Part shown: piece after piece, positions 7,510 through 34,515 of the stretch
Numbering within the stretch: the first letter of the stretch is position 1
Layout of the letters: each line of letters starts with the position of its first letter
Virus record (IMG/VR): IMGVR_UViG_3300034104_002007
Location: 1-34,551 of that record
DNA from: a virus
DNA: 34,551 nt
Reading direction: 5' to 3' (one strand)
Program-made: the position numbers and the translations under genes
Notes under the pieces: generated by a model
Databases searched by the model: none
What the model was told of the DNA's origin: nothing
Seen by the model: only the letters and a program-made list of their open reading frames with translations

Positions 7510-10500
7510 ATGGCAACTAACAGTAAAGTATTCGTATCACCAGGTGTTTATACTTCAGAGGTAGATTTAAGCTTTGTAGCACAAAGTGTTGGCGTTACAA
7601 CTCTTGGGGTTGTTGGTGAGACTTTAAAAGGTCCAGCATTCGAACCAATTTTTGTAAGAAACTTTGATGAATTTCAAACATATTTTGGTGGTACATCCCC
7701 AACTAAATTTATTAACACACAAATACCTAAGTATGAAGCGGCATATATTGCAAAATCTTACTTACAACAATCAAATCAATTATTTGTTACTAGAATTCTA
7801 GGTTTGTCTGGTTATGACGCAGGACCTTCTTGGTCTATTAAAACAGTCGCAAATGTTGATCCGGCAACAATAGATGTTTGGTGTTTAAGCGGCGAAACAT
7901 TCCTTTGTGATTTTAATTGTACTTCAGCTTATACTTCAGATTTTGTTGTAAACTTTACTGGTTGTACTGAATCACAAGATACTATAGTTTATGAAAGTTT
8001 TTTTCCGACTGTAATTCAAAATATTATAGATGAACAAAATCAACAATTTGATGGTTCATCAGTTACATTAAATGAAGGAATTAAAGATTTAATTTTTAAC
8101 GTTATTACAGACGCTGACCCAACAATGGCCGAAGATGAATACATTTCAATTTTTGGTAGTGTTGATGGGACGGATTATTCTGGTGTAACGACATTAGGGT
8201 TTACAGCACAAACAAACTTCTTTGATGTTCCAAATGTTGTTTTTACCGCAAATACTTTAAGTAATTCAGCAAACGATCCTTGGTTTTATGCTTTATTTGA
8301 CCCAACTGGAAATGGTAATTATACTGGATACTCTTTTTGGTCTATTGTACAAGGAGTTCAGTCAATAACACCCACTAGTTTAGTTGGTCCTTTATCTAAT
8401 GTTTTAACATTAACAAGTTCACAAGCACCAGGTTCATTTCTTTTAAGTGCTAGAATTGCCCCAGGTTCAGTTGTTGTTGAGTTTTGCTTGATTGGTTTAA
8501 CTCCAGTCCCAAGTGATATTACATTAACGTTTGACGTTACTTTAGGTGTGTCTAGTGGTTTACCGATAGTGTTTAGTGACTCTGTTACAATTTTAGATGG
8601 TGCTATTTCTGGTTGTTCTTATGTAACATTACCAGATGAGGATTACGGAAGATTAAATGGTATGGCTAGCATTAGTAATTTAGTTTCAAGTGACCCTCTT
8701 ATTTTAGACCCAAATAGTATTACTTTTGAATATGATTTTATTTGTGAACCTATCGTTCCAACTCCAACAGTTACCCCTGTTCCACCAGATAATAACTTAT
8801 GTTATTCTGGAAGTGTTGTTGGTAAAATTTATTATTATACTGGAAATACGTTTACAGATTATGATGATGTTGTTGTTGCAACTTTAAGATCAAGAGGTAT
8901 TGCAACTTACGCCGATAGTAATGTACCAACATATGAGGTAACAGGTCTTACAGATGTTTCTTTAACTATGACTGGTGCTTATTCAGCCGTAACTAAAGAC
9001 CCATACGCAACATTCCTTGTAAATGCAACAAATTCAGGTGGTGTTAATTTTTCTTTTGAAACTTCTTTTAGTACTAGTGATGCTGAATATGTTTCTAAAG
9101 TATTTGGAACTTCCAACTTTGCAAAACCTAAAGCAACCGTTCCATTATTCCTAGAGGAAAGATTCCAAGCGTTTTTAAACTATGCTTACAAAAAAGGATA
9201 TATTAGAGGTTTAAGTTCAGACTTAATCGCACTTGACTCGGCACAATCTGAAAGTACAACTTCAATTGGTTGGTACTTGGATAGATACCAAACACCATCA
9301 TCTCCTTGGGTTGTTTCAGAACTTCGTGGTAATAAAGTTTTTGATTTGTTTAAATTCTATACCGTTGCCGATGGTAATTCTGCAAATACAAATGTTAAAG
9401 TTTCAATTTTTGATATTTCTTTTGCTAACGGAACTTTTAGCGTGTTGGTTAGAGATTATTTTGATTCGGACGCTAACCCTACAGTTTTAGAAAAATTCAC
9501 AAACTGTTCTATGGATCCATCACAAAACAACTTTGTTGCTAAAAAGATTGGTACTTTAGATGGTGAATATCAATTAAACTCTAAATTTATTATGGTTGAA
9601 ATGAATGAGGACGCACCAGTTGATGCACTTCCTTGTGGTTTTGATGGGTATACATTTAGAGAGTATGCTGGTGCTAAACCACCATACCCAATTTATAAAA
9701 CAAAATATAATTTCCCAGGTGAAGTTATTTGGAATCCACCGTTTGGTTTATCAACAGGTGGTGACAACACAACTTTGAGTTCTGGTGATAATGTAAGACG
9801 TACTTATTTAGGGTTTTCAAATCAATTAGGCTATGATTCTGATTTCTTTGAGTATGTTGGAAAACAAAACCCATTAACGTCTTGTGATTTAGATGGTTCT
9901 AATTGGAATTATAAAACTAGAGGTTTCCATATGGATAAGAATGCTTCTGGTATTACAATCAATGGAAACTTTGTAAGTAGTGGCGACCCTAGATTCTTTG
10001 TTGGTGACGCAACATTCTCAACTGAACCTACAAATGATACTAGTCCTTACTATAGATTGTTCTCAAGAAAATATACTTTGTTTGTTCAAGGCGGTTTTGA
10101 CGGATGGGACATTTATAGAGAATATAGAACAAATGGTGATAGATATGTACTTGGACGTACTGGATTCTTAAATGGTGCTTGTGCAACTGACAGATATCCA
10201 ACCGCAACTGGATGGGGTGCGTTTAAACAAATTTCTGTTGGCGATGGAACAAGAGACTATGGAAATACAGATTACTATGCTTATTTATTAGGTGTTAGAA
10301 CATTTGCAAACCCAGAAGCTGTTAATATCAACGTATTTGCAACTCCAGGTATAGACTATGTAAATAATAGCGATTTAGTTGAGGCTACAATTGATATGAT
10401 TGAGTACGAAAGAGCTGACTCTTTATATATCACAACTAGTCCTGATTATAACTTATTCTTACCAACAACAACTGGTACTGACGGATTAATTTACCCTCAA

Positions 10501-11157
10501 GAAGCTGTTGACAACTTGGAAGAAACAGGGATTGACTCAAACTATACCGCAACATATTACCCTTGGGTATTAACAAGAGATAGTGTAAACAATACACAAA
10601 TCTACATTCCAGCAACGGCTGAAGTTACAAGAAACTTGGCACTTACTGACAACATCGCATTCCCTTGGTTTGCGGCGGCTGGTTACACTCGTGGTTTGGT
10701 TAATGCGATTAAAGCTCGTAAGAAGTTGACACAAGAAGATAGAGATACTTTATATCAAGGAAGAATTAACCCAATTGCAACATTCTCTGATGTGGGTACT
10801 GTAATTTGGGGTAATAAGACACTTCAAATTAGAGAGTCCGCTCTTGATAGAATCAACGTAAGAAGATTGTTACTACAAGCTCGTAAATTGATTTCTGCGG
10901 TGTCTGTAAGATTGTTGTTTGATCAAAATGATGAACAAGTACGTCAAGACTTTTTAAATGCTGTAAACCCAATTTTGGATTCAATTAGAAGAGATAGAGG
11001 TTTATATGACTTTAGAGTTACTGTGTCTTCTGATACGGCTGATTTAGATAGAAACCAAATGACAGGTAAAATTTATATCAAACCAACACGTTCACTAGAA
11101 TTTATAGATATTACATTCTATATCACACCAACTGGTGCATCGTTTGAGGATATTTAA
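7510..11157 (+). CDS. gp18: Contractile tail sheath protein (gp18-like), enlarged
   Basis: A 1215-residue sheath subunit; T4 gp18 is about 660. The N-terminus VFVSPGVYTSEVDLS and the region FDEFQTYFGG are classic sheath features. The C-terminal 250 residues are the conserved core: FPWFAAAGYTRGLVNA, QGRINPIATF, WGNKTLQ, SALDRINVRRLL, then the final strands TGKIYIKPTRSLEFIDI. This protein polymerises around the tube and contracts to drive infection. The extra length lies mainly between about residues 115 and 450, a Ser/Thr/Gly-rich beta region that includes several cysteines and a Pro/Thr linker PTPTVTPVPP near residue 415. Core-like sequence resumes at VVVATLRSRG (about 455). The insertion probably decorates the sheath surface. 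A terminator follows directly. The family call is firm. Confidence 0.93.
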   Translation: MATNSKVFVSPGVYTSEVDLSFVAQSVGVTTLGVVGETLKGPAFEPIFVRNFDEFQTYFGGTSPTKFINTQIPKYEAAYIAKSYLQQSNQLFVTRILGLSGYDAGPSWSIKTVANVDPATIDVWCLSGETFLCDFNCTSAYTSDFVVNFTGCTESQDTIVYESFFPTVIQNIIDEQNQQFDGSSVTLNEGIKDLIFNVITDADPTMAEDEYISIFGSVDGTDYSGVTTLGFTAQTNFFDVPNVVFTANTLSNSANDPWFYALFDPTGNGNYTGYSFWSIVQGVQSITPTSLVGPLSNVLTLTSSQAPGSFLLSARIAPGSVVVEFCLIGLTPVPSDITLTFDVTLGVSSGLPIVFSDSVTILDGAISGCSYVTLPDEDYGRLNGMASISNLVSSDPLILDPNSITFEYDFICEPIVPTPTVTPVPPDNNLCYSGSVVGKIYYYTGNTFTDYDDVVVATLRSRGIATYADSNVPTYEVTGLTDVSLTMTGAYSAVTKDPYATFLVNATNSGGVNFSFETSFSTSDAEYVSKVFGTSNFAKPKATVPLFLEERFQAFLNYAYKKGYIRGLSSDLIALDSAQSESTTSIGWYLDRYQTPSSPWVVSELRGNKVFDLFKFYTVADGNSANTNVKVSIFDISFANGTFSVLVRDYFDSDANPTVLEKFTNCSMDPSQNNFVAKKIGTLDGEYQLNSKFIMVEMNEDAPVDALPCGFDGYTFREYAGAKPPYPIYKTKYNFPGEVIWNPPFGLSTGGDNTTLSSGDNVRRTYLGFSNQLGYDSDFFEYVGKQNPLTSCDLDGSNWNYKTRGFHMDKNASGITINGNFVSSGDPRFFVGDATFSTEPTNDTSPYYRLFSRKYTLFVQGGFDGWDIYREYRTNGDRYVLGRTGFLNGACATDRYPTATGWGAFKQISVGDGTRDYGNTDYYAYLLGVRTFANPEAVNINVFATPGIDYVNNSDLVEATIDMIEYERADSLYITTSPDYNLFLPTTTGTDGLIYPQEAVDNLEETGIDSNYTATYYPWVLTRDSVNNTQIYIPATAEVTRNLALTDNIAFPWFAAAGYTRGLVNAIKARKKLTQEDRDTLYQGRINPIATFSDVGTVIWGNKTLQIRESALDRINVRRLLLQARKLISAVSVRLLFDQNDEQVRQDFLNAVNPILDSIRRDRGLYDFRVTVSSDTADLDRNQMTGKIYIKPTRSLEFIDITFYITPTGASFEDI

Positions 11158-12332: not shown

Positions 12333-12821
12333 ATGGCTGATTTATTAATGAAAATGCCTATCCCGTATGAACCAAAAAGACAGAATAGGTTTATCTTACG
12401 ATTTCCATCTAGTCTAGGTATCAACGAATGGTTTGTTGAAAGCGCTTCTAGACCGTCAATTAAAATTGGTTCAACTGAAATACCCTTTTTAAATACATCA
12501 ACTTATGTTGCGGGAAGATTTAACTGGGAAGAGATTTCTGTTAAATTTAGAGACCCAATTGGACCTTCAGCTTCTCAAGCCCTTATGGAGTGGGTACGTT
12601 TGTGTGCCGAGTCTGTTACTGGTCGTATGGGTTATGCCGCAGGTTACAAAAAGAATGTAGATCTAGAGATGTTAGACCCAACTGGTGTTGTTGTAGAAAA
12701 ATGGATTTTAGAAGGATGTTTTTTAACTTCTGTAAACTTTGGTTCATTAGCTTACAATCAAGACGCTCTAGCCGACATTACAGGTTCATTAAGAATGGAT
12801 CGTTGTATCTTGGTGTACTAA
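12333..12821 (+). CDS. gp19: Tail tube protein (gp19-like)
   Basis: A 162-residue protein of the size of T4 gp19 (163). It carries the tube-family layout: an N-terminal strand PKRQNRFILRFPSSLGI, the SASRPSIKIGSTEIPFLN segment, GRFNWEEISVKFRDP, a helix with ALMEWVRLCAE, a GYAAGYKKNVDLEMLDPTG strand and a final EGCFLTSVNFG...ITGSLRMDRC region. Hexamers of this protein stack inside the sheath as the DNA channel. It has its own promoter-like element and a terminator, consistent with the high copy number needed. The call is firm. Confidence 0.92.
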   Translation: MADLLMKMPIPYEPKRQNRFILRFPSSLGINEWFVESASRPSIKIGSTEIPFLNTSTYVAGRFNWEEISVKFRDPIGPSASQALMEWVRLCAESVTGRMGYAAGYKKNVDLEMLDPTGVVVEKWILEGCFLTSVNFGSLAYNQDALADITGSLRMDRCILVY

Positions 12822-12964: not shown

Positions 12965-13729
12965 ATGGATGCAAATGTAAATGAGATTGGTCAAATGAAT
13001 TTTAATTTACCACACGACGTTGTTATGTTGCCGTCAAAGGGTAAATTCTATAAATCAAAAAAGAAAAGTGTCAAAGTTGGTTATTTAACAGCTAATGACG
13101 AAAACATACTAGCTAATCTAAATTTTTCAAAATCTGTTAAGGAGTCTATTGTACTTCCTTTGCTTAGAAACAAACTATACGAACCAGATTTAAGACCAGA
13201 GGAATTACTTGATGGTGACTTGGAAGCCTTATTAATCTTTTTAAGAAACACGTCTTTTGGTCCAGAATATCTAATTGAGGTTATTGACCCAAAAACAGAA
13301 AAACCATTTTCTACAACTATATTATTAGACGAATTAAATATAGTCCAATCACCAAACGAACCAAACGAAGAAGGTTTATTTACAACGACTCTACCTAGAA
13401 GTGGTGCCGATGTTAAGTTAAAACTTCTTAACCTAAAAGAACAAATGGAACTTGATGACCTTATTGCAAATTATCCAGCAGGTAGAATGGCACCATCCGC
13501 AACATTAAGATTACAAAGAAATATTGTTGAACTAAATGGTAGTAGAGATGGTGGGGAAATAGCAAAGTTTATTGAACAAATGCCGATTATGGATTCAAAG
13601 CACATCAAAAAAGTCTTAAATGATAATGAACCTAGATTAGATTTATCTAAAAATGTAATAGCCCCGTCTGGAGAAAAAGTGAACGTAAGTATCGCTTTTG
13701 GGGTGGAATTTTTTCGGCCTTTCTTCTGA
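12965..13729 (+). CDS. Baseplate hub/tail assembly protein (gp26-like), short zero-frame product
   Basis: A 254-residue protein with the opening seen in gp26-type baseplate hub/tail assembly proteins of T4-like phages: LPSKGKFYK then VGYLTANDENIL, followed by a helix-rich part (LLDGDLEALLIFLRNTSFG) and a beta domain. It sits directly before the tape measure gene, where many tailed phages encode a tail assembly chaperone made in two lengths by ribosomal frameshifting. The zero frame stops at TGA 13727-13729, a few codons after the run TTTTTTCGG (13709-13717). A +1 shift there continues for 50 residues to 13868. The zero-frame end RPFF is unconserved-looking. The name is by resemblance; chaperone function is inferred from position and frameshift. 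Confidence 0.7.
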   Translation: MDANVNEIGQMNFNLPHDVVMLPSKGKFYKSKKKSVKVGYLTANDENILANLNFSKSVKESIVLPLLRNKLYEPDLRPEELLDGDLEALLIFLRNTSFGPEYLIEVIDPKTEKPFSTTILLDELNIVQSPNEPNEEGLFTTTLPRSGADVKLKLLNLKEQMELDDLIANYPAGRMAPSATLRLQRNIVELNGSRDGGEIAKFIEQMPIMDSKHIKKVLNDNEPRLDLSKNVIAPSGEKVNVSIAFGVEFFRPFF

Positions 13730-13868
13730 ACATAGGAAATATTTACTTGACGAATTTTATATACTAGCAAAAATCCTCCGAACACAATATAGTGAGTTCC
13801 TAACATTACCAACATATATCAGACGTTTTTTAATTGATAAGATTATTGAAGAAAATAAAAAACGATAA
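13713..13868 (+). CDS. Frameshift extension of the tail assembly protein (+1 frame)
   Basis: In the +1 frame relative to the gp26-like gene, coding sequence continues through the stop, reading FFGLSSEHRKYLLDEFYIL and then a helix-rich tail with LPTYIRRFLIDKIIEE, ending TAA at 13866-13868. It has no start codon or leader of its own and fills the otherwise empty gap to the tape measure gene. The tail resembles the C-terminal part of gp51/GT-type chaperones (LP..RR..I..II). A slip of the Phe tRNA from TTT to TTC (13712-13715), with a rare-looking CGG waiting in the A site, would give a 300-residue fusion. A sequencing indel is the main alternative. Confidence 0.65.
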   Translation, partial: FGLSSEHRKYLLDEFYILAKILRTQYSEFLTLPTYIRRFLIDKIIEENKKR

Positions 13869-13898: not shown

Positions 13899-15752
13899 AT
13901 GTTTATGGGTACAGTTGTAACGAGCTCAAAAGATGAAAAGGACGCTCAAGTTGGAATGTCGGAAGATAAGAGTCTTGATTTATCTGGAAATTTAGGTAAA
14001 ATCTTAAGCGGACAAGAAAGTATTTTAAAAGTTCTAGCTGGCGCCGCAAAAGAAAACCTTGGTGGTACCGCACTCCTTAACGCAACAAAATCACTCAATG
14101 AAGAAGCATATAGATTAGCCAGAAGTCTTGGTGTTTCTAGTCAAAGAACGCGGGAATTAACTGTTAGTGTTGCTGACGCAATACCAGAATTTGTTGCAAT
14201 AGGTTTAGAAGTTGGGGACGCCGGAAGAGCAATGTCCGGATTGTATGAAGCCTTTAATACAAATCTTTTTATTGGGAAAGACGCACTTACCGAATTTGCG
14301 GCAACAGCAAAAGTAACTGGTGTGGAACAAAAAACATTAGCCGTAAATTTTAGAGATGTTGGTGTTAGTGTTGCAGGTATTGGACCTAAAATGAGAGAAG
14401 TTACTAGAATTGCACAACAAGCTGGTGTCACAGTAAAAGCCGTTTCAGACGCCGTGGTGACCAACCTAGACAAAATGAATTTATATAATTTTGAAGGTGG
14501 CATTAAAGGTCTTGCAAAAATGGCAGCACAAGCCTCTAGACTTGGAATTTCTATGGAGGGCGTTTTTGGTGTTGTGGATAAAGTTTTTAATCCAGAAGGT
14601 GCAATAAATATGGCCGCAGCACTCCAAAGACTAGGAGTAACAACAAGTGATTTATTAGACCCTTTAAGACTAATGGATTTATCTCAAAATGACCCAACAG
14701 AATTACAAAATCAAATGGTTAATATGACAAAAGAATTTGTTAGATTTAATAAAGAAACAAAATCATTTGAAATACTACCAGGGGCAAAAAGAAGACTAAA
14801 TGAGATTGGTGCTGCTATGGGTTACAACAATGGTGAACTACAAAAAATGGCAATTAATGCCGCAAATTTTGATGCTAAACTCCAACAAATAAGAATGCCC
14901 GACATCCCAATTAATGAAGAAACCAGAAATCTTATTGCGACAATGGCTCAAATGAATGAGAATGGAATTGCCGAAGTTAGGGTTGCTCAAGTTGATGCAC
15001 AAGGAAACTTAACTGGTGAATATGATACTGTTGCGGCACAAAATTTAACACAACAACAAATTGAAAGATTACAAAAACAACAATTATCTGAAGGAGCAAC
15101 AATGTCAGACATAGCTGTTGACCAATTAGATGAATTAAGAAAATTAAACACAAAAATGAATGAGTTTATAATGGCTCAAAAATATGGTACTGCGTCTAGT
15201 AATTTCTTTTCAGGGACGTATACTAAAGGTTTAAGAGGTTTGACAAAAGTATTTGAAGAATCACCAGCTGGTTCAGAAACTGCTAACACTTCTAAAACAT
15301 ACCGAACAGGAATAGATAATTTAAATTTTAATTTTAAAGATATTATAAATAAAGGTGGGGAGGTGATAGAAAAAATATTAGCAGGCATTTATACAAAAGT
15401 GGCTAATTTTTCACCAGCAGACGTAATGAATGTTGGTAAAAATCTTGGAAATACCATTAAAAATATACCATATAAACCTGGGGATTATAATAACATTTAT
15501 TCGTATAACACCCCAAAATCAAATGTTGAACACTCTGGTACAATCAAACAAGAAATAGACATAAAAGTTGATTTTAGTGATGTCGCAATGTTAGATCCTG
15601 AAATGAAAAAGATTGCTGGAAACACATTTATGAGATTAATTGAAGAAACTGGGTTTCAAAACAAGTTTAAAGAAAATCAAAATAAAACTTTTAATAAACC
15701 GAATGAACCAACAAATATATTAACCGAATATGAAAGAGGATCTGCAACTTAA
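13899..15752 (+). CDS. Tail tape measure protein (gp29-like position)
   Basis: A 617-residue, largely helical protein rich in Ala, Gly and short hydrophobics, close to T4 gp29 (590). Residues 25-330 show the typical tape-measure pattern: repeated small-residue helices such as LAGAAKENLGG, RLARSLGVSSQRTRELT and FEGGIKGLAKMAAQASRLG. A Gln-rich stretch (LTQQQIERLQKQQ) and a more polar C-terminus with strands IKQEIDIKVDFSD follow. It lies inside the tube and sets its length before ejection. The gene follows the frameshifting assembly gene, the classic arrangement. A second ATG (13905, third codon) could be the true start. The call is by composition, size and position. Confidence 0.75.
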   Translation: MFMGTVVTSSKDEKDAQVGMSEDKSLDLSGNLGKILSGQESILKVLAGAAKENLGGTALLNATKSLNEEAYRLARSLGVSSQRTRELTVSVADAIPEFVAIGLEVGDAGRAMSGLYEAFNTNLFIGKDALTEFAATAKVTGVEQKTLAVNFRDVGVSVAGIGPKMREVTRIAQQAGVTVKAVSDAVVTNLDKMNLYNFEGGIKGLAKMAAQASRLGISMEGVFGVVDKVFNPEGAINMAAALQRLGVTTSDLLDPLRLMDLSQNDPTELQNQMVNMTKEFVRFNKETKSFEILPGAKRRLNEIGAAMGYNNGELQKMAINAANFDAKLQQIRMPDIPINEETRNLIATMAQMNENGIAEVRVAQVDAQGNLTGEYDTVAAQNLTQQQIERLQKQQLSEGATMSDIAVDQLDELRKLNTKMNEFIMAQKYGTASSNFFSGTYTKGLRGLTKVFEESPAGSETANTSKTYRTGIDNLNFNFKDIINKGGEVIEKILAGIYTKVANFSPADVMNVGKNLGNTIKNIPYKPGDYNNIYSYNTPKSNVEHSGTIKQEIDIKVDFSDVAMLDPEMKKIAGNTFMRLIEETGFQNKFKENQNKTFNKPNEPTNILTEYERGSAT

Positions 15753-28676: not shown

Positions 28677-29543
28677 ATGGCGACAAACAATGTTTTAGAT
28701 GCAGTTTTGGCTCAGTATGAAAGCTCAAAACAAAGTGGTTCTTCTTCCACTTCAAAAATGTCTCAAGAAGAAAGAATGAAAAAGTATTTTGCTGCAATAC
28801 TTAAAGACAACGAAAAGCAAGCACAAAAAAGAATCCGTATTTTACCAACACCAGACGGGTCAACACCGTTTAAAGAAGTGTGGTTTCACGAAATCCTTGT
28901 GGACGGTAAATGGCAGAAATTTTATGATCCAGGAAAAAATGACAATGAGCGCTCACCATTAAGTGAGGTTTATGAAGAGTTGATGAATACTGGAAAAGAT
29001 TCTGACAAAGATTTAGCAAAACAATACAAACCTCGTAAGTTTTATATTGTTAAAGTAATTGACCGTGACAACGAACAAGATGGTCCTAAATTCTGGCGAT
29101 TTAAACACAACTACAAGCAAGAAGGAATTTTTGATAAAATCATTCCAATCTACAAAGCAAAAGGTGATGTTGCTGACGCGGACAAAGGACGAGATTTAAT
29201 TCTTGAACTAACAAAAGCAAAAACACCAAAAGGTGCGTTCTATACAGTAATCCAAACTGTTATGTATGATGACCCATCTCCAGTACACGAAGATGAAGAC
29301 ACAATGACATCTTGGATTGGAGACGAACTTACTTGGGAAGATGTTTATTCTAAAAAACCAGCAGAATACCTTGAAGCAATTGCTCGTGGTGAAACACCAA
29401 GATGGGATTCTGATGCTGGAAAATACATTTACAGTAATTCTACAGAAGGTGAAATCTCTATGGGTGGTAAAAAAACCAAAGAAGAAACAAAAGTCGTTGA
29501 TCCACAAGAAGACGATGATATTGACGAAGAGTTACCATTCTAA
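28677..29543 (+). CDS. gp32: Single-stranded DNA-binding protein (gp32-like)
   Basis: A 288-residue protein similar in size to T4 gp32 (301). It has a Ser-rich N-terminal arm, a basic entry KQAQKRIRILPTPDGSTPF into the OB-fold core, aromatic strands (EVWFHEILVDGKWQKFYDP, KPRKFYIVKVIDRD, KFWRFKHNY), and a highly acidic C-terminal tail ending DDDIDEELPF, the part that recruits partners. It coats ssDNA during replication and recombination and cooperates with UvsX, encoded next. The Cys/His zinc-binding residues of T4 gp32 are absent; a DPGKNDNERSPLSE segment occupies that place. It has its own promoter and terminator, as expected for an abundant protein. Confidence 0.85.
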   Translation: MATNNVLDAVLAQYESSKQSGSSSTSKMSQEERMKKYFAAILKDNEKQAQKRIRILPTPDGSTPFKEVWFHEILVDGKWQKFYDPGKNDNERSPLSEVYEELMNTGKDSDKDLAKQYKPRKFYIVKVIDRDNEQDGPKFWRFKHNYKQEGIFDKIIPIYKAKGDVADADKGRDLILELTKAKTPKGAFYTVIQTVMYDDPSPVHEDEDTMTSWIGDELTWEDVYSKKPAEYLEAIARGETPRWDSDAGKYIYSNSTEGEISMGGKKTKEETKVVDPQEDDDIDEELPF

Positions 29544-29555
29544 TTTTTAACAAAT

Positions 29556-29605
29556 AATATGGGTATATTAGTGGACAATGTACCCATATTTTCTTATCTT
29601 TTTAA
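29556..29605 (+). terminator. Terminator after the gp32-like gene
   Basis: A perfect 10-bp stem (AATATGGGTA, 29556-29565, with TACCCATATT, 29581-29590) around a 15-base loop, followed by a T-rich tract. It lies 12 bases after the gp32-like stop and would set a high SSB to UvsX transcript ratio. Confidence 0.7.
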
Positions 29606-29614
29606 AAAAACATT

Positions 29615-30625
29615 ATGGCAATCAAAAAAACAGACTTTAGTTCGATAAAGAAAAAATTCTCGTCGGACGCAAAATACAAACCACAAAGATACTTTGATTT
29701 AGGACCAGCATTTTTAGATGCTGTAGGACTTCCAGGTCCTGCTATGGGACACATCAATATGTTTCTTGGACATTCAGATACTGGAAAAACAACAGCTCTT
29801 GTAAAAACAGCCGTTGATGCTCAAAAAAAAGAAATACTACCGGTTTTTATTATCACAGAACAAAAATGGTCTTTTGAGCACTCAAAACTTATGGGGTTTG
29901 AATGTGAAGAAGTTGTTGATGAAGAAACTGGTGAGTTAACTTGGGATGGTTTCTTTTTATTTAATAACAATTTTAGTTATATTGAACAAATCACAGACTA
30001 TATTAATGATTTATTAGACGCACAAGAAAAAGGTGAGTTAGATTATTCATTATGTATTATGTGGGACTCTGTTGGTTCAGTTCCTTGTAAAATGACATAC
30101 GAAGGTAAAGGCGGTAAACAACACAACGCAAGTGTTTTGGCGGATAAGATTGGAATGGGAATTAACCAAAGAATTTCTGGGTCACGTAAAGCTGATTCTA
30201 AATTTGAAAACACATTAATCATTGTAAACCAACCTTGGGTAGAATTACCAGACAATCCATTTGGACAACCAAAAATTAAAGCAAAAGGTGGTGAAGCAAT
30301 TTGGTTAAACTCATCTTTAGTATTTTTATACGGAAACCAAAAAGGAGCGGGAACAACAAAGATTACAGCGACTAAAGACAAAAGAACTGTTAAATTTGCA
30401 TCAAGAACAAAAGTATCGGTTATGAAAAACCATATTAATGGACTTGGGTTTGAAGATGGTAAAATTATCGTAACACCTCACGGGTTTTTACCTGGAAAAG
30501 ACGCTACGGAAGAAAAGAAATCTATAGAAGATTACAAAAAAGATTATGCCGAATATTGGAAAAATATTATTGGTGTAGATGGTGAATTTGATTTAAAAGA
30601 AGAAAAGGTTTATGAACAAGAATAA
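29615..30625 (+). CDS. uvsX: UvsX/RecA-type strand-exchange recombinase
   Basis: A 336-residue RecA-family ATPase. Walker A is GHSDTGKT (52-59), the Walker B region is LCIMWDS (146-152), a Gln/Asn strand IIVNQPW follows, and loop regions contain KGGKQHNA and the GGEAIWLN stretch. Length and sequence match T4-type UvsX, which forms filaments on ssDNA and drives recombination-dependent replication and repair with gp32. An acidic C-terminal tail is present. The gene overlaps the methyltransferase by 14 bases and heads a tightly packed run down to the helicase. Confidence 0.92.
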   Translation: MAIKKTDFSSIKKKFSSDAKYKPQRYFDLGPAFLDAVGLPGPAMGHINMFLGHSDTGKTTALVKTAVDAQKKEILPVFIITEQKWSFEHSKLMGFECEEVVDEETGELTWDGFFLFNNNFSYIEQITDYINDLLDAQEKGELDYSLCIMWDSVGSVPCKMTYEGKGGKQHNASVLADKIGMGINQRISGSRKADSKFENTLIIVNQPWVELPDNPFGQPKIKAKGGEAIWLNSSLVFLYGNQKGAGTTKITATKDKRTVKFASRTKVSVMKNHINGLGFEDGKIIVTPHGFLPGKDATEEKKSIEDYKKDYAEYWKNIIGVDGEFDLKEEKVYEQE

Positions 30626-31634
30626 ATTAAAAGTAGTATCATTATTTTCCGGTTACGGAACACAAGAGTTAGCACTTAAATATATTGGGGTTGACTATGA
30701 AAATGTTGCAAACTGTGACAACTTCAAACAAGCAAACGAATGTTATGACGTTTTACATACAACAACAAACGGAAATCTAGGAGATATAACAAAAGTTGAC
30801 GAAAACAACTTTCCAAATTGTGATTTATTAACATATTCGTTTCCTTGTCAAGACATTTCAATATCTGGTGTACAAAGAGGAATTAAAGAAGGTACAAGAA
30901 GTGGGTTGTTATTTGATGTTGAAAGACTTTTATCTGTTAATAGACCACAATATCTATTGATGGAAAACGTTAAAAATTTAGTATCTAAAAACCACTATGA
31001 AAATTTTAAAAAACACATTTATTTTCTTCGTGGATTAGGATATACTTCGTACTGGAGAATTTTGAATGGTGCTGACTTTGGTTGTCCACAAAATAGAGAG
31101 CGAGTTTTTATGGTTTCAGTTTTAAATGGTGACAAAGATGACGTGAAACAAAAAATGATGAATGTTGATATTCACAAAAAAACTAGAATACCTATGGACA
31201 CATTTATTGAAGACACCGAAAATCAATCATTGTTTATTGATTGTCCATACACCTTACATCAACCAAAACACCACACAATTTGTAGATTAATTGCTAGAAG
31301 GGATGATATTAGTTACGACCAAGCAAGAAGAATTTATTCTATTGAAGGGTGTTCACCTTGTCTAACAACTAGTGGTTCACCACAAATTATGACAAGAGAC
31401 GGTAGAGTAAGAACAATTACCGCAAGAGAAGGGTATAGGTTTATGGGTGTTCGTGACGAAGATATTGATTTATTACTAACAACATCATTATCAACAAAAG
31501 GGCACGTATCTCTAGCCGGAAACTCAATTTGTGTACCAGTAATGGAAGCTATATTTACAGAGTTTCTCTCTGACTATATCCAGGAAAAAGAACCAGTATT
31601 GTCAAACCCAATAAACGAAACTTCTAATGACTAA
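30612..31634 (+). CDS. C5-cytosine DNA methyltransferase
   Basis: A 340-residue enzyme with the motifs in canonical order: I (VVSLFSGYGTQELAL, SAM binding), IV FPCQ (77-80, catalytic C79), VI ENV (118-120), VIII QNRERV (160-165), IX RTITAREGYRFMG (267-279) and X AGNSICVPV (302-310). The target recognition region (about 170-265) is short, so the recognised sequence cannot be told. It methylates cytosine C5 in duplex DNA, probably to protect phage DNA from host restriction. It overlaps uvsX by 14 bases and RNase H by 8, so it is part of the replication operon rather than a stand-alone cassette. No restriction enzyme gene lies next to it. The function call is firm. Confidence 0.95.
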   Translation: MNKNKLKVVSLFSGYGTQELALKYIGVDYENVANCDNFKQANECYDVLHTTTNGNLGDITKVDENNFPNCDLLTYSFPCQDISISGVQRGIKEGTRSGLLFDVERLLSVNRPQYLLMENVKNLVSKNHYENFKKHIYFLRGLGYTSYWRILNGADFGCPQNRERVFMVSVLNGDKDDVKQKMMNVDIHKKTRIPMDTFIEDTENQSLFIDCPYTLHQPKHHTICRLIARRDDISYDQARRIYSIEGCSPCLTTSGSPQIMTRDGRVRTITAREGYRFMGVRDEDIDLLLTTSLSTKGHVSLAGNSICVPVMEAIFTEFLSDYIQEKEPVLSNPINETSND

Positions 31635-32643
31635 AACTTTATTAGTTGATGGAAATAATCTATTAAAAATTGGTTTTCACGGTGTTAGAGACTTTTTTAA
31701 TAAAGGAGAACACGTTGGTGGTACTTGGCACTTTTTAAACACTTTAAGAAGATTTTTAGAGGAAACTAATTATAACAAAGTAGTTGTCTTTTGGGATAGT
31801 GAAACTGGTTCTTCACAAAGAAGAATTATCTATCCCAAATACAAACTCAATAGAAAACAAAAAAACGAAGAAGATTTTAAAGAACAATCTTTTACCACTC
31901 AAAAAAACAGAGTAAAACAATACCTAGAAGAAATGTTTGTTAGACAATTAGAGGTAGAACAATCGGAGGCTGACGATTTAATTGCTTACTATTGTCAAAT
32001 TTCTGAAGATGAAGACAAAACAATATTTTCATCCGATAGAGATTTAACACAGTTAATTTCTGAAAGAGTAACTATATATTCACCCCAACAAAAACGATAT
32101 TATAAAAATGGTGATGGTATTAAAATGGATATGTCAGAAATACCACATTATAATATCAAAACTTACAAAATATTAACTGGTGATAGTTCAGATAATATTG
32201 ATGGTATTTTTTATTTGGGTGAAAAAACATTTCTTAAATTATTTCCTGAAATACTTGATACTGAATTAAAATATACCGATATTTTAACAAAGGCAGAAAG
32301 TTTACTTTCGGAACAAAAAGGAAATGTTGCCTTACAAAATCTCCTAAGTGGGAAAACCAAAGAGGGAATATTTGGAGAGGAGTTTTTCACAATCAACGAA
32401 AAAATAGTGGATCTCGCAAACCCATTAATTTCGGAAGAAGGAAAAGAATTTGTTAGATTATATTATTCAGAGTCGTTGGATCCAGACGGAAGAGGACATA
32501 GAAATCTAATAAGAATGATGATGGACGACGGATTCTTCAAATTTCTCCCAAAGGGTGACGATGCCTGGGTAAATTTTTTAAAACCATTTTTAAAACTATC
32601 AAGAAAAGAAAAAACAAATTTTAGAAACAGAACAAAAAAGTAA
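31627..32643 (+). CDS. rnh: RNase H / 5'-3' exonuclease (FEN-1 family, T4 Rnh-like)
   Basis: A 338-residue flap-nuclease family protein. Acidic metal ligands are visible: D8 (LVDGNN), D57 (FWDSE), the EADD cluster (114-117), D137/D139 (SSDRDL) and D186/D189 (TGDSSDNIDG), followed by a helix-hairpin-helix region (GIFYLGEKTFLKLFP). In T4 this enzyme removes RNA primers and adjacent DNA from Okazaki fragments with help of gp32 and the clamp; both size and order near gp32/uvsX genes agree. Its start overlaps the methyltransferase by 8 bases. C-terminal residues are strongly basic (KKTNFRNRTKK-like), likely for DNA binding. Confidence 0.92.
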   Translation: MTKTLLVDGNNLLKIGFHGVRDFFNKGEHVGGTWHFLNTLRRFLEETNYNKVVVFWDSETGSSQRRIIYPKYKLNRKQKNEEDFKEQSFTTQKNRVKQYLEEMFVRQLEVEQSEADDLIAYYCQISEDEDKTIFSSDRDLTQLISERVTIYSPQQKRYYKNGDGIKMDMSEIPHYNIKTYKILTGDSSDNIDGIFYLGEKTFLKLFPEILDTELKYTDILTKAESLLSEQKGNVALQNLLSGKTKEGIFGEEFFTINEKIVDLANPLISEEGKEFVRLYYSESLDPDGRGHRNLIRMMMDDGFFKFLPKGDDAWVNFLKPFLKLSRKEKTNFRNRTKK

Positions 32644-32646
32644 AAA

Positions 32647-33096
32647 ATGAGAGAACAAGAAGTAACAAAAGTAGAATTTCTTTTAATGTGTAATGACAAT
32701 ATTGTTGTACAACGATATTTTAATGTCAAGGGTTTCAATAAAAACGCACACAAATCTGAAGATTTTTATGATTACATTAGATCGTTTTGTAATGAACTAC
32801 AATACGATTTAAAAATGAGATCTGTAGTTTATATGTTGGAAAACCAATATGAAATTATGGAAAACCCGGAAGTGTTAAACACATCCATAACAGAAGGTGA
32901 CGAAATTTTTAACCTATATATTAAGGTTGAGAATATGACAATTTGTCAGAGGTCATTTGATGCAAAAGTATACCCACCAAAGGTCAGATATACCGTAGAC
33001 CTACGCCCAAAGCTGAAAACCATATTGTCGGAACTTACTGACATTTTTTCAGGTAGAAAATTTAATTATTTTTATCCACAATTTATTCAAAACTAG
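32647..33096 (+). CDS. Hypothetical protein, 149 aa, in the replication operon
   Basis: An unrecognised 149-residue protein starting 3 bases after the RNase H stop. It contains an early hydrophobic strand (KVEFLLMCNDNIVVQRYFNV), a helix (DFYDYIRSFCNELQYDLKMR), and a later strand-rich part (FNLYIKVENMTICQRSFDAK) ending with aromatic FNYFYPQF. No enzymatic or nucleic-acid motif is obvious. T4 encodes helicase loader gp59, gp33 and dsbA near rnh and 32, so a loader or transcription accessory role is possible by position only. The gene is followed by a TATTTATC element before the helicase. Confidence 0.7.
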   Translation: MREQEVTKVEFLLMCNDNIVVQRYFNVKGFNKNAHKSEDFYDYIRSFCNELQYDLKMRSVVYMLENQYEIMENPEVLNTSITEGDEIFNLYIKVENMTICQRSFDAKVYPPKVRYTVDLRPKLKTILSELTDIFSGRKFNYFYPQFIQN

Positions 33097-33099
33097 TAG

Positions 33100-33107
33100 T
33101 ATTTATC
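33100..33107 (+). promoter_or_regulatory. TATTTATC element before the helicase gene
   Basis: Plus-strand TATTTATC, 22 bases before the ATG at 33130. It is the only copy in the replication module and could give the helicase an additional late transcript. Confidence 0.35.
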
Positions 33108-33129
33108 TTTACTGATAAGAAGAAAAATT

Positions 33130-34515
33130 ATGGCGACAAACAAAAACTTTGAATATCTTGGGAACAATTTTCAAATACAATTACTTAACCAAATCATTGT
33201 AGACAAAGACTTTTCACACTCAATTATTGAGGTAATTGAAAACAATTATTTTGAAAACAAGTATTTTAAAATAATCATTCAAATGATAAAAGAGTACTAT
33301 ACAAAGTATGAACATACACCATCATTTGACACCCTAGAACAAGTCGCAAAATCCGAATTACAACAAGAAACCGCCGTTAAGGTTGTACTTGATACCGTTA
33401 AGAAAATCAAGTCTGCACCTATCGACGGAGCGGATTTTGTTCAGGAAAAGGCACTTAAATTCTGTAAACAACAAGAGTTACAGAAAGTAATGAAAAAGGC
33501 TCAAAAGATTATTGACGGAGGTGAGTTTGAAAACTACGATACTCTAGAAGAATTGGTAAGAGACGCATTACTGGTTGGTTCAAAAGACACCTCAATGCTA
33601 GATGTCTTCTCAAACTTAGACCAAGTGTTAGACGATGACTACAGACACCCAATCCCAATGGGAATACCAGGGATTGATAGACTGTTGAAAGGAGGATTAG
33701 CAAAAGGGGAAATTGGTGTAATATTAGCACCAACTGGTGTAGGGAAGTCAACTGTTTTAACAAAGATTTCAAACCACGCGTTTAACCTAGGATTTAACGT
33801 TCTTCAAGTATTCTTTGAAGACAACCCAAAAGTGATACAGAGAAAACATTTTACTCTCTGGACAAAGATTCACCCTGACGAATTGTCAGAAAAAAAGGAT
33901 GAGGTGATGACTAAAGTAAAAGAAATCAAGGAGACAATGCCAAATGAGTTAATCTTGAAAAAATTACCATCTGATACCAAAACAATGCTTCAAATCAAAA
34001 ATGAGATTAGAAAGATGATTGCTGATGGTGTTAAAATAGATATGGTTGTTTTAGATTACATTGATTGTGTTGTTCCAGATAAAAACCTAGGGGACGAGTG
34101 GAAAAGTGAAGGATCTGTAATGAGAGGATTTGAAGCTATGTGTCACGAATTAAACATTGCTGGTTGGACGGCAACACAGGGAAATAGAGCTTCTATTTCA
34201 TCAGAAGTTGTAACAACAGACCAAATGGGTGGATCAATTAAGAAGGCACAAGTAGGACACGTTATTATTTCAGTAGCAAAGACATTACAACAAAAAGAAA
34301 TGAAATTAGCCACAATAGCAATTACCAAATCTCGTATTGGAGATGACGGTGTGGTGTTTGAAAATTGTAAATTTGATAATGCAATGATTGAAATAGACAC
34401 AGAATCCACAACCACATTTTTAGGTTTAGAAGAACAAAAAGAGGAAAGACAAAGGTTAAGAGTTAAAGAATTGTTGGAAAAAAGACAACAAAGAGAACAA
34501 GAAAAAAAATCATAA
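33130..34515 (+). CDS. gp41: Replicative DNA helicase (DnaB/gp41-like)
   Basis: A 461-residue RecA-fold hexameric helicase. The N-terminal helical domain (1-150) precedes the motor: the strand PIPMGIPGIDRLLKGGLAKGE leads to Walker A APTGVGKST (200-208), Walker B MVVLDYID (305-312), the sensor-like TQGNR (349-353), and the arginine-finger region ITKSRIGDDG (398-407). Its C-terminus is highly charged and helical (QKEERQRLRVKELLEKRQQR). It would unwind the fork 5'-3' ahead of the polymerase, and T4 gp41 (475 aa) is of matching length. A primase is not seen in the window. The call is firm. Confidence 0.93.
   Translation: MATNKNFEYLGNNFQIQLLNQIIVDKDFSHSIIEVIENNYFENKYFKIIIQMIKEYYTKYEHTPSFDTLEQVAKSELQQETAVKVVLDTVKKIKSAPIDGADFVQEKALKFCKQQELQKVMKKAQKIIDGGEFENYDTLEELVRDALLVGSKDTSMLDVFSNLDQVLDDDYRHPIPMGIPGIDRLLKGGLAKGEIGVILAPTGVGKSTVLTKISNHAFNLGFNVLQVFFEDNPKVIQRKHFTLWTKIHPDELSEKKDEVMTKVKEIKETMPNELILKKLPSDTKTMLQIKNEIRKMIADGVKIDMVVLDYIDCVVPDKNLGDEWKSEGSVMRGFEAMCHELNIAGWTATQGNRASISSEVVTTDQMGGSIKKAQVGHVIISVAKTLQQKEMKLATIAITKSRIGDDGVVFENCKFDNAMIEIDTESTTTFLGLEEQKEERQRLRVKELLEKRQQREQEKKS

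Follow-up and report, generated by a model that had tools for sequence, protein, structure and literature searches.

Comparison of related sequences indicates that a tail assembly chaperone gene of the T4 gp26/gp51 family (PF12322) almost certainly uses a programmed +1 frameshift, which would take place on the ribosome. The gene lies in the window, by which we mean the whole stretch of DNA that was analysed, a 34,551-base virus contig with T4-like tail genes, and its lineage is a large T4-related group of uncultured tailed phages. A conserved stem-loop stands just upstream of the slip site in the window clade, as shown by covariation (13661-13704); it is new in this analysis, having been missed by an earlier reading of the letters alone (the sequence-only reading), and it probably acts as the stimulator of the slip.

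Pairs of short and long chaperones made by a -1 shift are classical, and what is known of bacterial +1 programmed frameshifting comes mainly from prfB (RF2), which slips at a stop codon with a Shine-Dalgarno (SD)-like tract close by. By its title, a 2022 paper by Vladimirov reportedly presents T4-like chaperones as made by a mechanism other than frameshifting. The short and long T4-like tail assembly chaperones are credited to Vladimirov, Gautam and Davidson 2022 in passages of two later papers (PMC10885494, PMC12846349), and poly-T -1 signals are mentioned for T4-like genes in a passage of one of them (PMC12846349). A search of the open-access literature found no report of a +1 shift in the PF12322 chaperone family or of a phage +1 site with a natural hairpin upstream of it.

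Results

The 0-frame gene (12965-13729, + strand, 254 aa) would encode the short form of the chaperone (T4 gp26/gp51-like, TAC-N). It matches PF12322 at 31.2 bits (E 2.2e-7; curated cut-off 24.5) and phrog_150 at E 2.3e-10, two families that T4 gp26 and gp51 each match as well. An AlphaFold model of the short form (pLDDT 86) returned 50 matches at E at most 0.001 in a BFVD fold search, to T4-type hub chaperone proteins, including SP-15 and T4-like gp26/gp51-type ones, and no match at E <= 0.001 in a PDB fold search. The gene directly follows that for the tail tube protein (gp19-like; 12333-12821, + strand; phrog_4542, E 9.6e-24), and a tail sheath gene lies at 7510-11157 (phrog_23, E 6e-55). 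The next gene downstream (13899-15752, + strand) is a possible tape measure gene by position only: it had no family match in Pfam and PHROG profile searches, its pairwise match to the immuto tape measure protein is not significant (E 0.03), and the gene after the chaperone is annotated as tape measure in immuto, SP-15 and LIS04. No tRNA genes were found in the window. Beyond the tail genes, 28677-34515 holds genes resembling those for ssDNA-binding protein, UvsX recombinase, DNA methyltransferase and DnaB helicase.

The reading frames at the end of the gene are as the sequence-only reading described them. The gp26-like frame ends at TGA 13727-13729, five codons past the slip TTT, and the +1 frame, open over 13689-13865, runs to a TAA at 13866-13868. 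If TTTC is read in one step at residue 250, a single 300-residue fusion results, with 50 residues beyond the slip; this extension (13715-13868, + strand) forms the putative TAC-C domain. The -1 frame of the window is closed 12 codons past the 0-frame stop, which does not fit a canonical -1 site (X XXY YYZ). The gene would make two proteins, short and long, both presumed to be tail assembly chaperones.

The +1 layout is kept among relatives. A protein search of IMG/VR returned 77 relatives of the window gene, one of them cut short; all 76 readable ones retain the second TTT as well as CGN and CCT TTC, and in each the 0 frame stops early and the +1 frame stays open, in one case running off the contig end. 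Searching with the Microcystis phage Mel-JY01 and Flavobacterium phage immuto genes brought in another 160 loci (for each, the best 80 of about 600 matches), and scans of viral contigs with the SP-15, L086, SagM and RM378 genes gave only 1, 3, 1 and 1 loci. Among the matches listed, window included, 242 of 246 readable copies have a +1 frame that continues open beyond the 0-frame stop (207 classed as +1 and 35 in which the -1 frame is also open for at least 30 codons), four have the -1 layout and none has a continuous frame; these 246 contain the window twice plus near-identical contigs. Five of 251 stretches were left out, namely L081, which is T4 and gave no hit, and L074, L122, L151 and L189, which are cut before a stop. 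Dereplication at 90% protein identity left 123 groups, 120 of them +1, and an in-frame UUU followed by U or C stands four to eight codons before the 0-frame stop in 120/120 dereplicated +1 loci. A DNA pattern scan found at least 120 further contigs; all 120 listed have the same layout (in six the contig ends before the +1 stop is reached), with the 0-frame stop 5 or 7 codons past the slip in every one. A pattern scan of genome contigs for a host gave 222 matches, none of them a relative. The probable +1 programmed frameshift in a two-length chaperone gene, as first read from the window, is supported by these comparisons of the junction and of both frames.

Substitutions in the +1 extension number 222, 109 and 452 at codon positions 1, 2 and 3, and its single-change codons comprise 264 synonymous against 99 non-synonymous. 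Comparison between relatives shows that selection acts on both frames.

The slip region TTT TTT CGG occupies 13709-13717 (+ strand), with a putative tRNA-Phe slip from TTT 13712-13714 to TTC 13713-13715 while CGG is in the A site. The sequence-only reading had located this site and GGG G at 13700-13703 correctly and had left both as candidates; the second is now ruled out. In three loci (L025, L055, L077), and in 12/147 distinct window-type sequences in all, a TAG stops the +1 frame after GGGG but ahead of the T-run, and the shift must therefore come after the TAG. The second TTT is present in 147/147 distinct sequences, 107 of which came from a pattern that fixes TTTTTTCG, and the first codon is TTC in 2. 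At the site TTC TTT CGC of L021 and L024, +1 re-pairing is possible for the second TTT alone, and a -2 shift cannot pair. The upstream +1 stops and the TTC TTT variants together show, by comparison within the window clade, that the predicted slip falls on the second TTT, 13712-13714, moving from TTT to TTC.

The A-site codon is CGN in all 147 distinct sequences (CGG 50, CGT 47, CGC 45, CGA 5), so that no stop codon of the prfB type stands there. That CGG is rare was borne out: among 10,918 codons of window genes it occurs 5 times, CGC 2 and CGT 37 times, vs 291 for AGA, and since these three are few, a slow A-site codon may help the slip in the window clade. CGN is no general trigger: in sister clades the place is mostly taken by TGG, a codon that is not rare in the window. 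Over the 120 dereplicated loci, sister-group sites read TTT TTT TGG in 67, TTT CTT TGG in 18 and rarer forms in others, and at TTT CTA sites the first TTT must be the slipping codon. In Listeria phage LIS04 the site is TTT TTT AGT, at which only the first TTT can slip at +1, and the extension is unannotated in the record.

The stem-loop upstream, identified with RNAalifold and pair counts on the + strand, has 13 pairs and a bulge, and six of its pairs show two-sided changes. Its outer helix joins GCCCCG (13661-13666) to TGGGGT (13699-13704), which holds an invariant GGG codon and ends 7 nt 5' of the slip codon; the GGGG itself lies within the stem, 8 nt from the slip codon. The inner helix joins AAAAGTG (13676-13682) to CGCTTTT (13692-13698), with 5 of its 7 pairs changed on both sides. 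Between the helices lies a nine-base one-sided bulge, TCTGGAGAA (13667-13675), with a nearly invariant TCNGGA. The bulge is SD-like itself, and a tertiary or rRNA contact is possible.

For 25 dereplicated window-type genes, the RNAalifold consensus is -12.9 kcal/mol vs -0.2 ± 0.7 in shuffled columns. Across 40 distinct sequences, 95.2% of cells of the whole stem-loop are paired vs 87.1 ± 0.8 after shuffling (97.9% in the outer helix), 46 cells have two-sided changes vs 16.2 ± 5.0, and slid versions of the structure reach at most 60% paired, where cells come from related sequences and are not independent events. The free energy is -15.8 vs -9.2 for synonymous recoding of the same peptides, with z below -2 in 21/25 loci and in 0/25 for a control region. 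Among the pattern-scan sequences listed, none of which was used to derive the structure, z is below -2 in 52/78 dereplicated ones. The search pattern contained the outer stem, so that the inner stem is the independent pairing test there: 77.0% of its cells are paired vs 66.6 ± 0.9, and two-sided changes number 95 vs 41 ± 7. Covariation and folding energy thus show that a conserved stem-loop exists upstream of the slip site in the window clade. One locus (L064) breaks an outer-stem pair and folds poorly, and its relatives L062 and L066 have GCTCC, giving a U-G pair in the outer stem.

Codon choice in the region is constrained as well. Across the 25 dereplicated window-type genes, synonymous constraint is greatest at the upstream GGA and GCC, at GGG and at the slip-site codons, and it is highest at the slip codons in both clades. 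GGG is kept in 25/25 dereplicated loci and in 40/40 distinct sequences found by protein, because it sits in the stem; GGA is kept in 25/25 (expected codon identity 0.36) and in 38/40 distinct sequences. Two-frame coding accounts for the constraint on CCT and TTC but not for that on GGG and GGA.

A downstream stimulator was considered and rejected: in the window clade RNAalifold gives 0.0 for +9 to +110, and single-sequence folds past the site are near the shuffled expectation (mean z -0.52). Of five sister groups at 70% identity, only the immuto group has a consensus structure clearly beyond shuffles (-6.0 vs -0.9 ± 1.2).

The alternative that survives best accepts the +1 shift and gives the stem-loop another role, in mRNA stability, pausing or transcription, with the UUU-Y motif and a rare A-site codon alone driving the slip. 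In line with this alternative, the slip motif persists in sister clades that mostly lack a common stem-loop, and CGG and CGC are among the rarest window codons. We nevertheless consider it unlikely: the stem ends a constant 7 nt before the slip codon, with the same length in all 80 hits listed from a scan that allowed 20-36 nt between the parts of the stem, and its constraint goes well beyond protein needs. A stem that covaries next to the slip site is what an upstream hairpin stimulator would look like, and stimulation of the +1 slip by the stem-loop remains the preferred reading.

Other routes to the long product are far less probable. Runs of six or seven T would permit a -2 shift, such as phage Mu uses, but this is very improbable, as the -2 codon cannot pair with tRNA-Phe in TTC TTT CGC or AAC TTT CTA. 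We give equally little weight to a separate overlapping gene with its own start. Within the stretch that begins at the upstream +1 stop and reaches 25 codons beyond the slip, the +1 ORF has at least one ATG, GTG or TTG in 105/120 dereplicated loci, but 15/120 have none of the three and 59/120 have no ATG; a separate gene would also give no reason for the conserved slip motif and the exact overlap, and related phages reach the same domain by -1. The earlier remark that the +1 frame has no start of its own fails strictly for the window, where TTG 13698 lies inside the ORF, and holds for those 15 members of the family. Transcriptional slippage on the six T in a row of the window, yielding mRNAs with one U fewer or two more, is slightly less probable again, given the same layout with only TTC TTT in L021, L024 and SagM-GXN1 and with TTT CTT/CTA at the site in 21/120 dereplicated loci. 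Assembly or sequencing error, suggested by the homopolymer at the junction, is excluded for practical purposes because the layout is conserved in hundreds of contigs and in the cultured Mel-JY01, immuto, RM378, SP-15, LIS04 and SagM-GXN1.

The direction of the shift varies across the family. The +1 layout is found in Microcystis Mel-JY01, huge phage LR756508, Flavobacterium immuto, Rhodothermus RM378, Bacillus SP-15, Streptococcus SagM-GXN1 and Listeria LIS04. Huge phage LR756511 and three contigs (L086, L248, L249, L250) have a -1 layout, their site being T TTT TTC or T TTT TTT, and by reading of frames Atu_ph07, XacN1, Vibrio 2.275, RAS14, Paride and PBECO4 would have it too. While direction differs between lineages (huge and jumbo phages -1, L380, L381 and L383-L386 among them), the Phe-Phe junction stays. 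In Alishewanella phage Slicko01 (L382) a possible C-terminal domain lies in the +1 frame, with no clear slip site visible. Profile comparisons link the window-clade +1 domain both to its sister-clade counterpart (prob 97.7, E 2.4e-12) and to the domain that LR756511 and its relatives encode in -1 (prob 96, E 4.6e-9). The match to the T4 gp51 C-terminus (hhalign prob 14-19%) is at most suggestive of homology. In the annotated records examined, the second frame is missing or entered as a separate hypothetical gene. Klebsiella phage KP17 (OR666137.1) has a gp51 match in two pieces, perhaps from a frame disruption or sequencing error.

SD-like motifs are scarce before the genes of these phages. 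A loose motif was matched before 2/23 window genes, and the counts are 0/85 in the window clade, 23/546 in the pattern-scan contigs listed and, among the matches listed, 2/72 in immuto-type and 66/113 in Mel-type contigs. No conserved SD tract of the prfB type was found at the window-type site, where the GGAG position varies (GTN GAN, GCT GAG, GTC ACA). Among the sister clades, the Mel and immuto groups have purine-rich, SD-like tracts beyond synonymous expectation, about 33 nt ahead of the first slip codon; such tracts (L087-L246) are coded by different amino acids (KE, EEG, GG, RE), and that of the immuto group can base-pair with the slip site. A clean split, with the hairpin in SD-blind phages and the SD tract in SD users, was only partly borne out, as the SD-poor immuto group carries the tract.

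Discussion

The explanation that we regard as highly probable, taken as a whole, combines two chaperones, a +1 slip at UUU and a refolding hairpin as stimulator. Most ribosomes would stop at TGA 13727 and yield the short form. In a fraction of ribosomes, tRNA-Phe on UUU 13712-13714 would re-pair with UUC 13713-13715 while the rare CGG waits in the A site, and the ribosomes so shifted would make the 300-residue form with its C-terminal domain. The stem-loop at 13661-13704, just unwound by the ribosome, would refold at the mRNA exit side and favour forward movement, doing the job of the internal Shine-Dalgarno duplex in prfB. Because these phages have almost no Shine-Dalgarno sequences, the hairpin may replace that duplex. 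The position of the stem, 7 nt behind the P-site codon, fits by analogy with exit-side duplex stimulators.

The host of the window phage is probably a member of the Bacteroidota. Bacteroidia ribosomes are described as sequestering the anti-SD (PMC9976891), and poor frameshifting at prfB is described for F. johnsoniae (PMC12421855). Tentatively, phages of hosts that do not use SD pairing could have swapped the SD duplex for an mRNA hairpin, and a shared Phe-Phe poly-U junction could have been turned to +1 or -1 within the one chaperone family, with an upstream duplex setting the direction, a scenario that is attractive and that we rate as somewhat less likely than not.

Several known systems resemble the window gene in part. 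Lambda gpG/gpGT are likewise a short and a long chaperone that ribosomal slippage produces from a single gene, next to that for the tail tube, as outlined in PMC5009743; lambda uses -1, whereas the window gene would use +1, encodes a T4 gp26/gp51 family protein and has its putative stimulator upstream of the slip site. The short gp26 and the long gp51 of T4 share the PF12322 and PHROG families of the window gene, but the two forms come from two genes in T4 and apparently from one gene and a +1 shift here. The chaperone genes of Vandenendeviridae have a poly-T slip site (GTTTTT motif) near the end of the TAC-N gene, and their shift is -1, in the opposite direction, according to a passage of PMC12846349. 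A +1 shift has been inferred in the tail assembly gene of the haloarchaeal myovirus HSTV-2, which differs in being an archaeal virus, and an upstream stem-loop goes unmentioned in the passages on it (PMC5009743, PMC8211752).

With prfB the window gene shares a +1 slip at a pyrimidine-rich codon and an upstream duplex as likely stimulator; it differs in having a sense codon next and a duplex within the mRNA. The closest mechanistic parallel is with upstream refolding hairpins, for which a stem-loop by the slip site is described as favouring +1 and hindering -1 shifting, on 70S as well as 80S ribosomes (PMC6321510, PMC3639245). In E. coli extract, as given in PMC6321510, an upstream hairpin was about 60% as active in +1 shifting as an internal SD duplex and made -1 shifting less frequent; it acted only without RF2 at a stop-codon site, unlike the sense-codon site of the window. 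In yeast, +1 shifting rose when a hairpin preceded the +1 site, as described in PMC3639245. The elements treated in those passages were designed hairpins or a coronavirus element, whereas that of the window is natural and conserved in phages.

The T4-type chaperone family, described as made without frameshifting, on our comparison uses +1, -1 or, as in T4, two genes, according to lineage. General stimulators of +1 frameshifting are poorly known, and the push from a refolding stem could be tested cleanly on a natural upstream hairpin that covaries, in a setting where SD pairing is blocked. This +1 site makes the mechanistic question of the exit-side hairpin directly testable.
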